From an uncultured Lachnospiraceae bacterium (GTDB lineage: Bacteria; Bacillota; Clostridia; Lachnospirales; Lachnospiraceae): a DNA stretch of 64,000 nucleotides. Below are positions 51,236 through 63,791 of the stretch, piece by piece. The position numbers and the translations under genes were made by a program. The stretch's first letter is position 1. Each line of letters opens with the position of its first letter. The stretch is from positions 1 through 64,000 of the forward strand of contig CATKXR010000014.1 in the NCBI GenBank assembly GCA_949840805.1, given 5' to 3'. Under the pieces are notes generated by a model, which worked only from the letters and a program-made list of their open reading frames with translations, did no database searches and was not told where the DNA came from.

Positions 51236-51440
51236 GGTTATGACCTTTTGACCCCTATGATACCACAGATTGCTCCGCGCTTTGCGCTTACGCAATCTTA
51301 AAACACCTCAAATCCGCTCATTTTTCTGCGAAAAATGGCTACTTTTCGGTGTTTTTTCGGGTCCCAAGGTCAAAAATCCTTTTGCAAGCGGGCTTGCGTC
51401 GGATTTTCCGACCTTTTGACCCTGGTATCATCATTTTATC
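51236..51440. repeat. Structured repeat region upstream of the transferase gene
   Basis: GACCTTTTGACCC occurs directly repeated (about 51242 and 51410), ATGATACCA and TGGTATCAT are inverted near the ends, and CATTTTTCTGCGAAAAATG forms a hairpin in the middle, inside a CACC/GGTG stem. This looks like another long folded element. The stretch 51441-51708 shows no gene. Confidence 0.55.
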
Positions 51441-57961: not shown

Positions 57962-59048
57962 ATGGAAGACGGAAAAAGATATAAAGAGGAACTGTACCAG
58001 GAAGCATTAGAGACGGCCAGTGATCTTAATGTTTCAGAGAATGTACCGCTGGAGCGAACGGCAGGCAGAGGAATTGGTGGTTTCTCTGGTACAGGGAATG
58101 CCTATTCCGCTGGTCTATTGTTATCGGAACAGAGAAGAGCAGATGGTGATTTTAGACGGACAGCAGAGAATTTTAAGTTTGTATTTATATTATATTGGCA
58201 AATTTTTAAAACGAAAAAAGAACGCGTTTGTGGATTTAAAAAAATTGACAGACCATGAGATGGGAATTCGTCAGGGCCTGGAAGAATATGGTTTGAAAGA
58301 TAAAATCTATACCATGAAATTGGTGGGAAGGGAGGGGAATGAGCGAGAAGTAGATATTACATATGAAACTTTGACGGCTCCCCAGAAGCGAAAGATTGAT
58401 TTTTGCCCCATCACACTGATCCAGATCAATGTGGACAGTGAACAGTACAGAGAGCGAACATTGCACAAAATTTTTGCCAACCTGAACATGGGGGGAAGTC
58501 CTTTATCGAGTCAGGAACCGCGAAATGGGATATATGGATGCAAGTTTTATGATATGCTGTATGATATCAATGATTATTGTAAAAAGTGGCGTTTTTTGTA
58601 CAGCGGAAATCAAAACATGGATGTAAATAAGGAAAGCAAAGACGTAGAACTGCTTTTGAGAATGTGTGCTTTCAGGTATTATGTGACGGGAAGCGGGGCA
58701 GACTTTCTGTTAAATGAGTATAAAGGAAAAATCAGCATACTGCTGGACGATTTTTCGGAAAAAGCCAAGGATTTTGATCTCGTTCAGATAGAGGAATATA
58801 GACAGGTCCTGCTGTCTTTTATCGATTCACTGGAAGAGGTAAGCGGAAGGAATAAGGGGTTGGCTCTGATCAGTCTGTTTGTGGCATGGGACAGAATTGG
58901 AGATCAACGGTTTATTTCAAAGCGGAAAGTGACATCAATTGTCGAAAGTGAGGAATATCGAAGTACAATTTTACATGGGACTTCGGGGCGCAATGAGATA
59001 GAGAAACGATTGAGGTGTGCTTATGAGCGGCTACAGATTGATGATTGA
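57962..59048 (+). pseudogene. DUF262 protein with N-terminal frameshift
   Basis: ATG 57962 (GGCGAGG upstream) opens MEDGKRYKEELYQEALE; near 58015 the reading switches to the frame continuing ILMFQRMYRWSERQAEELVV. That block, with VQGMPIPLVYCYRN and VILDGQQRILSLYLYYIG, is the DUF262 core (ParB/Srx-like, as in GmrS of GmrSD type IV restriction). The rest to 59048 is helical and has no DUF1524 His-Me nuclease, so it would be a stand-alone DUF262 protein. Starting at an internal ATG (58020) could still give most of the protein. Probable defence gene. Confidence 0.7.
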
Positions 59049-59139: not shown

Positions 59140-59580
59140 TTAATATCGCTTCATCAGAAGTCTGAAAATCACGATTCCAGCTCCGAGCTGGAACAGGAGA
59201 TACCATGCCAGATACAAAATGATCGTGTGGGATTCCACCAGTTTTAAAGAGCCCAATATGGAAAATATCACTATAGAGACAGCGAGGACCGCCAGGCCCA
59301 GAAGATAGGCGTATCGGCCGGATTTGTCCCGGAGCTGTATCTTCAGCTCGTCGTGGAGCTCGATCTGTTCCCGGGCCAGTTTTTCTTCGTACCGCTTTTG
59401 ATTTTTTGGGGCGGACCAGTAAAAATATCGGAAGAGCATGGCAAGGCCTCCGCCTATGGCGCCTCCGGCGAAGCCGATGAGCAGGGAGTCCAGGGGAGTG
59501 TCTGTCAGTATATGGGCCAGGAGAAAGAGGCCTCCTGCCAGAAGATACAGGATTCCTGTGATCAGTTCATTTCTTTTCAT
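59140..59580 (-). CDS. Small membrane protein paired with XRE regulator
   Basis: 146 residues from ATG 59580; the longer frame lies over the regulator. Four hydrophobic segments (ITGILYLLAGGLFLLAHIL, SLLIGFAGGAIGGGLAMLF and two near the C-terminus) with a charged central segment. No named family recognised. It overlaps the XRE gene by 14 nt, a common small-operon layout in Firmicutes, suggesting that the pair acts together. Confidence 0.7.
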   Translation of the reverse strand: MKRNELITGILYLLAGGLFLLAHILTDTPLDSLLIGFAGGAIGGGLAMLFRYFYWSAPKNQKRYEEKLAREQIELHDELKIQLRDKSGRYAYLLGLAVLAVSIVIFSILGSLKLVESHTIILYLAWYLLFQLGAGIVIFRLLMKRY

Positions 59581-59782
59581 GTTCACCATTCCTTTCGTGG
59601 ATAAAAATTTCCTCAATGGGTCTGCCGAAAAAATCGGAGATGACAAAGGCCAGTTCCAGAGACGGGTTGTATTTGCCGGTCTCGATGGCGCTGACGGTCT
59701 GTCTCGATACGTGGATGGACCGGGCGAAGTGTTCCTGGTTCAGCCCCAGGGACTTCCGCAGCTTTTCTACCTTATTTTCCAT
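59567..59782 (-). CDS. XRE-family HTH regulator
   Basis: 71 residues, essentially one HTH domain: KLRKSLGLNQEHFARSIHVS and RQTVSAIETGKYNPSLELAF, ending FFGRPIEEIFIHE. This is the YgzD-like class usually encoded with a membrane protein. Likely autoregulatory. TTTACAATGT and TTGACAAAA-type AT sequence upstream may hold its promoter. Confidence 0.9.
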   Translation of the reverse strand: MENKVEKLRKSLGLNQEHFARSIHVSRQTVSAIETGKYNPSLELAFVISDFFGRPIEEIFIHERNGEHEKK

Positions 59783-59892
59783 GGTGTACCTCCCTGGTTT
59801 GACAAGGTTCCTTTACAATGTCAGGATATCATGGTTTTCACTTTTTGTCAATGTTCCTTTACAAAAATCTTTTTATGGCAATTTTATGAGTT
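59783..59892. other. Upstream region of the XRE operon
   Basis: On the minus strand TTGTAAAGGAACATTGACAA and a second GTAAAGGAACCTTGTCAA are near-identical and 40-50 nt apart, a possible pair of XRE operator sites. No gene. Confidence 0.35.
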
Positions 59893-59955
59893 ACGATTCA
59901 TGAGGTATCTGAATCGCTGTATAGCTGAGTGAGCGAAGTCGGCGATTGGGGCAAG

Positions 59956-60113
59956 GCCAGTCAGAGGAGGGCTGTCCCGTCCGGGTTCGGATATGCCAAA
60001 CATTCCGATGAGCCCTTAAAACGGAAAACAGTCGGGGTACGGCCCTCCTGTTTTCCTGGTCTCATCTCCATGGCATAAACTCGCCCGGCCGGGACAGCCC
60101 TCCTCTGACTGGC
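59956..60113 (-). repeat. Structured palindromic element, copy A
   Basis: Left arm GCCAGTCAGAGGAGGGCTGT (59956 onward, 30 nt) and right arm ending 60113 are reverse complements with one mismatch. Between them, on the minus strand, is a core with nested pairs GATGAG/CTCATC and GGAAAACAG/CTGTTTTCC. The core is about 88 percent identical to copy B. Similar flanks extend outward to about 59893 and inward to about 60137. The 61-residue minus frame through it is not called as a gene. Confidence 0.85.
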
Positions 60114-60420
60114 AAAAGCAGAATTCGCTGGCTGAGATTCGCTCACTTAAAGCGATTCCGATATGGAGCGCTGTTTCAACTTTCTGCTGGTCAATGACTG
60201 TGTTGCCTGCCATATTTTGCTCATTCAATGTCGTAAAATCAATGTTCTCAACTAAATTTGGCCTTATAACAGCACATCTGATCCGGTTACTATAAATTTC
60301 TGGAATCTCTCGATTTCTCAGGCTTTTTGATCGTTTCATAACTTATCTGGAGGGAGCCGTTCCCTAACCAGTCCGGAATAATATCTGGCCAGCTATATTT
60401 AAGCCGGCGAATTCTGATTT
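60114..60420. other. Spacer between the two palindromic elements
   Basis: No recognised gene. A minus-strand frame (60339 downwards, MKRSKSLRNREIPEIYSNRI) reads protein-like for about 75 residues and then enters copy A; family unknown, perhaps a decayed gene. Confidence 0.3.
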
Positions 60421-60576
60421 TGCCTGAGAGAAAGGGTCTCCGGTCCAGGCGAATTTACGCTATGAAGATGAGACCAGGAAAACAGGAGGGCCGTATCCCG
60501 ACTGTTTTCCGCTTTAAGGGCTCATCGGAATGCTTGGCGTATCTGAGTCTGGACCGGAGACCCTTTCTCTCGGGCA
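60421..60576 (+). repeat. Structured palindromic element, copy B
   Basis: Arms TGCCTGAGAGAAAGGGTCTC (60421, 28 nt) and its complement ending 60576 pair with one mismatch. Arm sequence is unrelated to copy A, while the core (GATGAGACCAGGAAAACAGG and onward) is nearly the same in inverted orientation. The inner pair ACGC/GCGT replaces TGCCA/TGGCA of copy A, a compensatory change. Confidence 0.85.
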
Positions 60577-60717
60577 CCACCACGACATCGCTCGCTCACC
60601 GAAACAGCAATTCAAATATCCCATGAATAGTACTTTATGAATCATATGTTGAAGTGGAAAATTGGCTATGATATAATCGGAACATGGAATAAGAATCTAG
60701 AACAAGGAGAGCGACGG

Positions 60718-63238: not shown

Positions 63239-63520
63239 CTACATGTTAAACAAATCCCCATGAGTTCCTGTGTCAACTAATGTCAGAGTTAGGATGTCGT
63301 CTTCTATAAGATAGATTAGGAGCCAGTCAGGCTGAATATGACATTCTCTATAGCCTTTGTAATTTCCGCTCAGAGGATGGTCTTTGTATTTTGCCTCCAG
63401 AGGAATTTTGGCTTTCAGCTTTTCCACAATTTTTTCCAGCAGGGAAATGTCAAGCCCTCTTTTAACCGCAAGTTTTAATCCTTTTTTAAAACGGGTGGAA
63501 TATTTAACTTTCAGAGTCAT
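63239..63520 (-). CDS. YafQ/RelE-type mRNA interferase toxin
   Basis: 93 residues: KYSTRFKKGLKLAVKRGLDI, then HPLSGNYKGYRECHIQPDWL and LIYLIEDD, ending TLTLVDTGTHGDLF. This is the YafQ group, with the conserved H-P-L and catalytic His near the C-terminus. It cleaves mRNA on the ribosome. The start overlaps the antitoxin gene by 17 nt. Confidence 0.9.
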   Translation of the reverse strand: MTLKVKYSTRFKKGLKLAVKRGLDISLLEKIVEKLKAKIPLEAKYKDHPLSGNYKGYRECHIQPDWLLIYLIEDDILTLTLVDTGTHGDLFNM

Positions 63521-63791
63521 CTTCTAATATCTCCTGAAACATTTCTCTGATATTGGTGTAGGATTTTACATTGGGATCCCTGCTGATCTGTTTGGCTTCT
63601 TCCATGGCCTCCAGGACTTCGGGCTTAAGCTGGGGAAGTTCCACTTTAAAAGGGAGTCCGCCTCGCAGGACAGCCTGTCTTAAAAATATGTTTACCGCGC
63701 TTGACATGTCCATTCCAAGCTGACTAAATAAATCCGCAGCCTGTCTTTTTAGATCTTCATCAATTCGAATTTGGGTTTGAACCGTAGCCAT
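63504..63791 (-). CDS. DinJ/RelB-type antitoxin
   Basis: 95 residues. The ribbon-helix-helix N-terminus (QTQIRIDEDLKRQAADLFSQ, then GMDMSSAVNIFLRQAV) and GGLPFKVELPQ are the RelB/DinJ signature; the acidic C-terminus would wrap the toxin. First gene of the pair, with a palindromic operator overlapping its promoter. Confidence 0.9.
   Translation of the reverse strand: MATVQTQIRIDEDLKRQAADLFSQLGMDMSSAVNIFLRQAVLRGGLPFKVELPQLKPEVLEAMEEAKQISRDPNVKSYTNIREMFQEILEDDSES

Follow-up and report, generated by a model that had tools for sequence, protein, structure and literature searches.

A two-hairpin mobile DNA repeat with a common core and matched, changing arms in a Lachnospiraceae genome

Bacterial MITEs such as RUP, NEMIS, Bcr1, ERIC, YPAL, and EFAR are presented, in the passages of PMC3733652 used here, as noncoding, multicopy elements with terminal inverted repeats and strong hairpins that generate target duplications. 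The hairpin family studied here is alike in these respects, its target duplications having been tested in one genome only (G440). It differs from the MITEs of that account in sharing one asymmetric core across many genera and terminal repeats and in having arms that are lineage specific, yet matched within each copy. Moreover, the copy in the window (i.e., the whole stretch of 64,000 nucleotides analyzed) measures 744 bp, more than the 70 to 300 bp quoted there. In bcr1 of the Bacillus cereus group, the resemblance extends to tens of copies per genome, intergenic position, conserved predicted secondary structure, and mobile features (PMC6542083, PMC2267715). According to these papers, bcr elements are confined to a single species group, and the swapped, matched arms of the hairpin family are absent from their descriptions of bcr1 as far as used here; the two are set apart by description, not by sequence. 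REPs and REPINs, which are mobilized by RAYTs, are likewise high-copy mobile palindromes, but the REPs of PMC3733652 are 20 to 40 bp long with a GTAG tag, whereas units of the hairpin family span roughly 200 to 860 bp, and we separate them by size. Two further cases resemble the arms. In template-switched hairpins, stems change and yet remain complementary, but the stems in the part of that study used here are those of rRNA (PMC8794818), and the long perfect inverted repeats described for mitochondria of Nematomorpha are coding palindromes in mitochondrial genes (PMC6649704). Unlike both of these, as presented there, the hairpin family is mobile and repeated many times in a genome.

What is already known is its general mode: the family works like a bacterial MITE in the features tested in G440. 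New here are a core common to many genera and scaffolds and arms that are matched but change freely. A preliminary description of the locus had assigned it to no named family, and this holds for Rfam 15 and the open-licence PubMed Central literature searched, in which no description of the hairpin family was found. With Rfam at gathering thresholds, no family was detected at the element, and the window gave only Clostridiales-1, elsewhere; at E values up to 1, ten loci yielded a single match, to RNAI, with an E value of 0.63 that lies below the threshold of that family.

Structure and surroundings of the window copy

From 59890 to 60633, the window holds a single copy of the mobile repeat, whose two ends are formed by hairpins A and B. 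Its features, in window positions, are the following.

59883 to 59889, plus strand: left copy of the direct repeat TTTATGA, an identical 7-mer lying beside both ends; possible target duplication, suggestive only
59890 to 60633, no strand: whole two-hairpin mobile repeat, with limits placed from the terminal inverted repeats and the flanking TTTATGA; the same A/B pair is present in contig C26 of assembly G000 and in G061
59890 to 59925, plus strand: left terminal inverted repeat, imperfect, aligned to the reverse complement of 60598 to 60633
59926 to 60149, plus strand: hairpin A, including the outer stem 59926 to 59936/60139 to 60149
59956 to 59979, plus strand: left arm of hairpin A, 24/24 complementary to 60090 to 60113
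59992 to 60077, plus strand: core A, conserved and asymmetric (covariance model match at 59979 to 60088, 129 bits; cores A and B were both among the 33 sequences used to build the model)
60090 to 60113, plus strand: right arm of hairpin A, 24/24 complementary to 59956 to 59979
60150 to 60401, no strand: spacer between the hairpins, crossed in part by an open reading frame (ORF) at 60016 to 60339 on the minus strand
60421 to 60576, read on the minus strand: hairpin B, inverted relative to A
60421 to 60448, minus strand: right arm of hairpin B, 27/28 complementary to 60549 to 60576
60456 to 60541, minus strand: core B, conserved and asymmetric, 79/86 identical to core A (model match at 60445 to 60554, 124 bits)
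60549 to 60576, minus strand: left arm of hairpin B, 27/28 complementary to 60421 to 60448
60598 to 60633, minus strand: right terminal inverted repeat, imperfect, pairing with 59890 to 59925
60634 to 60640, plus strand: right copy of TTTATGA

Each imperfect inverted repeat thus occupies the outermost 36 bases of its side. TTTATGA occurs 22 times on the plus strand of the 64-kb window, so that its presence beside both ends proves little alone, and this candidate target duplication is only 7 bp long. We regard the window copy as one nonautonomous, MITE-like repeat with two hairpins in convergent orientation, each bearing at its stem tip a conserved, asymmetric core of about 86 nt, with the moderate confidence that we attach to the best explanation as a whole (see below). 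At 744 bp, it compares with composites of ∼860 bp in Hungatella and full units of 212 to 217 bp in G440.

The preliminary description had recognized two inverted, folded elements with conserved cores, and these proved real, with coordinates correct to within a few bases. Its complementary arm pairs were likewise found (24/24 in A, 27/28 in B), as was the relatedness of the flanks in inverted order (59892 to 60133 versus 60402 to 60632, 78%). Its view that the arms of A and B are unrelated in sequence did not hold fully: weak similarity remains (21/2,000 shuffles scored as high), as expected of homologous arms that have diverged far. A compensatory change was also seen as reported, from TATGCC/GGCATA to TACGCC/AGCGTA, the pair concerned being U-A in 20/33 and C-G in 13/33 sequences of our first alignment. 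In RNA folding, the region of hairpin A (59888 to 60180) reached a z score of −11.6, with 0/200 shuffles as good, and that of hairpin B (60330 to 60645) a z score of about −7.5 on either strand, with 0/100 shuffles each. Folded alone as single-stranded DNA, core A gave a z score of −3.4 on one strand and −3.9 on the other (0/200 shuffles each). Core B alone gave −1.9 with 9/200 shuffles as good and is, by this prediction, not clearly stable.

A coding role of the hairpins was considered and rejected, since their small ORFs had no Pfam match above threshold. The ORF crossing the spacer matched no Pfam family, and for the two ORFs of the element, no family rose above the cutoff, with one subthreshold match to AXE1 (E = 0.013).

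To the left, the element is flanked by a helix-turn-helix regulator gene (59567 to 59782, minus strand) and to the right by a gene starting near 60715. Just upstream of the regulator gene, two 21-nt direct repeats (TTTGNCAANGTTCCTTTACAA) occupy positions 59798 to 59864 and may be its operator. Elsewhere in the window, an ORF at 58020 to 59048 (plus strand) contains a GmrSD_N domain (E = 1e−20), a Clostridiales-1 RNA lies at 51258 to 51430 (minus strand, 113 bits, E = 6e−25), and two adjacent small ORFs at 63239 to 63791 (minus strand) resemble what we take to be a YafQ/RelE-type toxin and a RelB/DinJ-type antitoxin. One genome, G013, retains the gene on the right (80% identity starting at window position 60668), and the 444 bases preceding it contain no match to the element. 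We rejected it as a clean empty site of the window copy because what lies upstream there looks by eye like the final part of another gene and because the left-hand gene has its match on another contig.

Copies, outer scaffolds, and mobility

In a pattern scan of named genomes, six contigs proved to contain the core; they belong to two metagenome-assembled genomes of Hungatella, which is placed in the Lachnospiraceae. The search for further copies by covariance model that the preliminary description had proposed showed them to be plentiful. With a model built from 33 copies, matches were obtained in 2/24 genomes of the window's genus, in at least 20/397 genomes sampled from the same family (f1, which we infer to be Lachnospiraceae), representing at least 17 genera, and in at least 5/295 genomes sampled from the order, all five in that same family, the share of the order sample that lies outside the family being unstated. 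These counts are lower bounds, and the E values of the model are rough. Deeper searches yielded 85 copies in G062, 66 in G156, 30 in G440, 29 in G061, 26 to 27 in G280, 14 in G246, 11 in G131, 8 in G145, and 4 each in G239 and G429; in G367, 22 copies were found, versus one in the wide search. In complete genomes, the strands of the matches were mixed. No match to the element was found among the plasmids and phages searched, nor to the two patterns searched in viral contigs. In the Hungatella genomes G061 and G062, many of the 29 and 85 model matches lay at contig ends. Assembly G000 (90% complete, 6.35% contaminated), the genome to which the window belongs, behaved similarly: the end of contig C26 falls within the same A/B pair as that of the window, and contig C14 ends just past a third hairpin, of B type.

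Crude ORF calls around 65 cores gave 18 convergent, 17 codirectional, 3 divergent, and 27 unresolved gene contexts, with 17/65 cores overlapping a long ORF by the same crude caller, and we draw nothing from either figure. A fragment of ∼100 nt of the spacer occurs alone in G012, another genome of the window's genus (L011:1501-1601). It is adjoined there by the motif GGATTAGC, which also flanks the fragment in a Hungatella copy, and it is perhaps a separate small repeat.

The boundaries of the mobile unit were most evident in G440, where hairpins lie within units of 212 to 217 bp bounded by AGRYAATTGCGAAAY, 15-bp inverted repeats with 51 exact matches in this genome and none for the reversed control. 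Among 25 bounded elements, 11 were of full length, 11 were hairpin-less scaffolds of 49 to 67 bp, and 3 were intermediate, a split that gives no genomewide proportion, the regions having been picked by motif or model. Taken as a 10-bp target duplication, which was the best of 16 boundary and length settings, the flanks had a mean identity of 0.58 versus 0.28, and in 8/25 elements they were identical at 8 or more of 10 positions, compared with 0/600 mismatched pairings. An 8-bp setting one base over scored nearly as well, which means that some boundaries in G440 are shifted. The scaffolds with the same ends and no hairpin (L141, L237 to L240, L244, L246, L248, L249, L252, and L254), many of them with matching flanks, indicate that a scaffold can reside in the genome without the core. 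Several of these short scaffolds have the appearance of deletion products, the hairpin having been lost between short direct repeats on either side of it.

Other genomes had other ends. TTAGG was present at both ends in 2/3 complete composites of G061, the same hairpin was joined to two outer sequences in G367 (L271 and L273 versus the others), and copies of family III in G061 and G008 showed by eye another end, TGTCATTTAG. These differing ends indicate that several outer scaffolds carry one core. An autonomous element of this kind would be expected to have the ends AGGTAATTGCGAAAC and a 10-bp duplication. Shortened cores that lack the inner stem, also of family III (L048:461-536, L056:552-627, and L137:1012-1087), have long matched arms of their own and TGTCATTTAG-like ends.

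In a hand-made list of neighboring matches within about 900 bases of each other, 15/19 were convergent, the kind to which the window pair belongs, 3 were tandem, and 1 was divergent; the convergent excess has a P value of 1e−6 against an expectation of 1/4, which overstates the independence of the pairs because some share descent. REPs, too, often occur as inverted pairs. We consider the hairpin family very likely to be mobile. Where the preliminary description had left a choice between a functional RNA and a transposing hairpin, transposition is borne out by the many copies, the terminal inverted repeats, and the target duplications of G440, while the covariation that it had invoked is here no proof of RNA function.

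Matched arms and a probably selected core

Across the window and the loci first taken from G000, G061, and G062, 46 hairpins were listed, among which at least six arm types were distinguished by eye. Free loss of arm complementarity, which the preliminary description had named as an outcome against it, was not the pattern found: matched arms were present in 32/33 complete hairpins compared. In the 1/33 exception (L072:2240-2406), a left arm of one type is combined with a right arm of a different type. Halves of two types are also joined in L083 and L123, which are partial or shortened copies, making three hybrids in all. These look like products of recombination or deletion between the two hairpins of a composite; assembly error is possible as well.

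In G156, the arms of the 22/66 copies read spanned 77 to 124 aligned positions. Within a copy, they were on average 98.7% matched (lowest value, 93.8%), whereas between copies the inner 75 nt were on average 56.5% alike, versus 48.4% when shuffled. This bears on the proposal that the core itself is mobile and inserts into the tips of existing palindromes, the arms then being target DNA. Such insertion would agree with the two outer scaffolds around one hairpin in G367 and with the occurrence of the G440 scaffold both with and without a hairpin. It would, however, demand many preexisting palindromes with arms as long and as closely matched as those of the 22 G156 copies, it does not lead one to expect arms weakly homologous to each other, and scaffolds without a hairpin have another possible origin, namely deletion between short direct repeats. 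We find it hardly credible.

Across 62 hairpins from 18 genomes, 3,175/3,252 arm positions were Watson-Crick pairs; this set, which left out the window and Hungatella copies, comprised 72 typed matches, from which 1 duplicate and 9 matches lacking a matched run next to the core had been removed. In G367, whose copies are a recent burst, one arm site carried the same base on both arms in 16/17 assessable copies (G in 7, T in 9) and was mixed in one; 17/20 copies were judged, L268 (right arm replaced) and L270 and L274 (other subfamilies) having been left out. Elsewhere in the arm, one-sided differences were present in at least five copies (L258, L266, L267, L269, and L272). Among standard pairs, G-U contributed about 1%, in the core as in the arms, compared with 9/129 pairs in a yardstick of six tRNAs only. 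On the hairpin strand, the G156 arms had 20 G-U versus 5 A-C mismatches (P = 0.004), but the arms of the other 17 genomes together had 9 versus 13 and those of 33 mostly Hungatella hairpins 17 versus 26, so that the strand signals conflict, and we set strand preference aside as evidence for RNA because this bias is inconsistent across genomes. With G-U rare and no consistent strand bias of mismatches, pairing could be kept at the level of DNA. Stepwise compensation in an RNA should leave more G-U than the 1% seen, which also favors leveling in DNA, while the G-U excess of G156 and the one-sided differences of G367 oppose it. On balance, and reading from the pattern, the arms are probably leveled at the DNA level. 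The part of PMC8794818 used here proposes template switching both as the origin of stems and as the means by which they remain paired with the loop retained; for the maintenance of short stems, the authors regard their strongest evidence as circumstantial.

The covariation noted in the preliminary description proved very strong in the core. Of the paired cells in 113 aligned matches (111 distinct), 95.7% held standard pairs, compared with 42.7 to 53.3% in controls with one side slid by one to three columns, and 27/28 pairs had changed on both sides, these counts leaning towards the model to which the alignment (A4) was fitted. The covariation score was 0.690, versus 0.201 when shuffled and at most 0.180 when slid. 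In the first alignment, made with MAFFT from 33 sequences, 14/28 pairs already had double changes. Six unpaired core columns (28, 33, 35, 132, 141, and 143) had identities of 0.99 to 1.00, and the other unpaired columns much less; for this column analysis, three palindromic reverse matches were dropped (110/113 kept), whereas the covariation test used all 113. The core helices contained more A-C (63) than G-U (31), or about 32 versus 21 without two doubtful columns, which fits neither simple model unless the RNA is the opposite strand. From the covarying helices, the near-invariant unpaired columns, and the double changes in the MAFFT alignment, we think that the fold is selected together with the asymmetric loop positions within it.

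An ordinary MITE family, its core an ancestral sequence without selected function that was kept by recent spread, would have the terminal repeats and target duplications observed here, and its core would not be needed for residence, as the short scaffolds without a hairpin suggest. This reading nevertheless has to accommodate at least 17 genera, far-diverged arms, 27/28 double-changed pairs, and loop positions that drift would not spare, and it appears very unlikely. Near-invariant loops within covarying helices are the classic signature of RNA, and a structured noncoding RNA, selected as such and spreading by riding in MITEs or by protecting transcripts, would also suit the one-strand G-U excess in G156 and the account of bacterial MITEs as transcribed and acting through RNA folding in the passages of PMC3733652 used here. 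Against it stand the scarcity of G-U pairs, the inconsistency of the strand bias, the lack of any matching Rfam family, and the placement of the composite's hairpins on opposite strands, such that a single transcript would contain them in opposite orientations. We judge selection as RNA to be rather unlikely.

The explanation that we favor, with moderate confidence, is a MITE-like superfamily of mobile hairpins in which the core is recognized folded and the arms are kept matched at the DNA level. A putative transposase acting on the outer repeats would move the unit, using several different outer scaffolds. The arms would be kept alike by template switching at the replication fork or by repair templated from the folded strand, processes by which long arms could change wholesale and yet stay nearly perfect, and the core would escape this leveling because it is selected in a folded, asymmetric form. 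With hairpins on opposite strands of the composite and wobble pairs rare, the core seems most likely to act as a single DNA strand that folds and is recognized by a putative protein, although we propose this only tentatively. A bolder version, which we consider unlikely, makes the core a family-wide folded-DNA signal for one dedicated putative protein, moving between unrelated MITE scaffolds, with the arms rebuilt from one half by hairpin-primed copying at each move. If that were true, the element would carry its own means of keeping a perfect palindrome, whatever its sequence.

Perfect stems with changing sequence are usually taken to prove that an RNA is functional, and a covariation-based search for RNAs is likely to report the hairpin family as a new RNA. 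Copies of the family are often found at contig ends. With tens of copies per genome and arms of up to 124 positions, the family offers a direct test of DNA template switching versus selection, and it is a further mobile element of gut bacteria, widespread and apparently unnamed.
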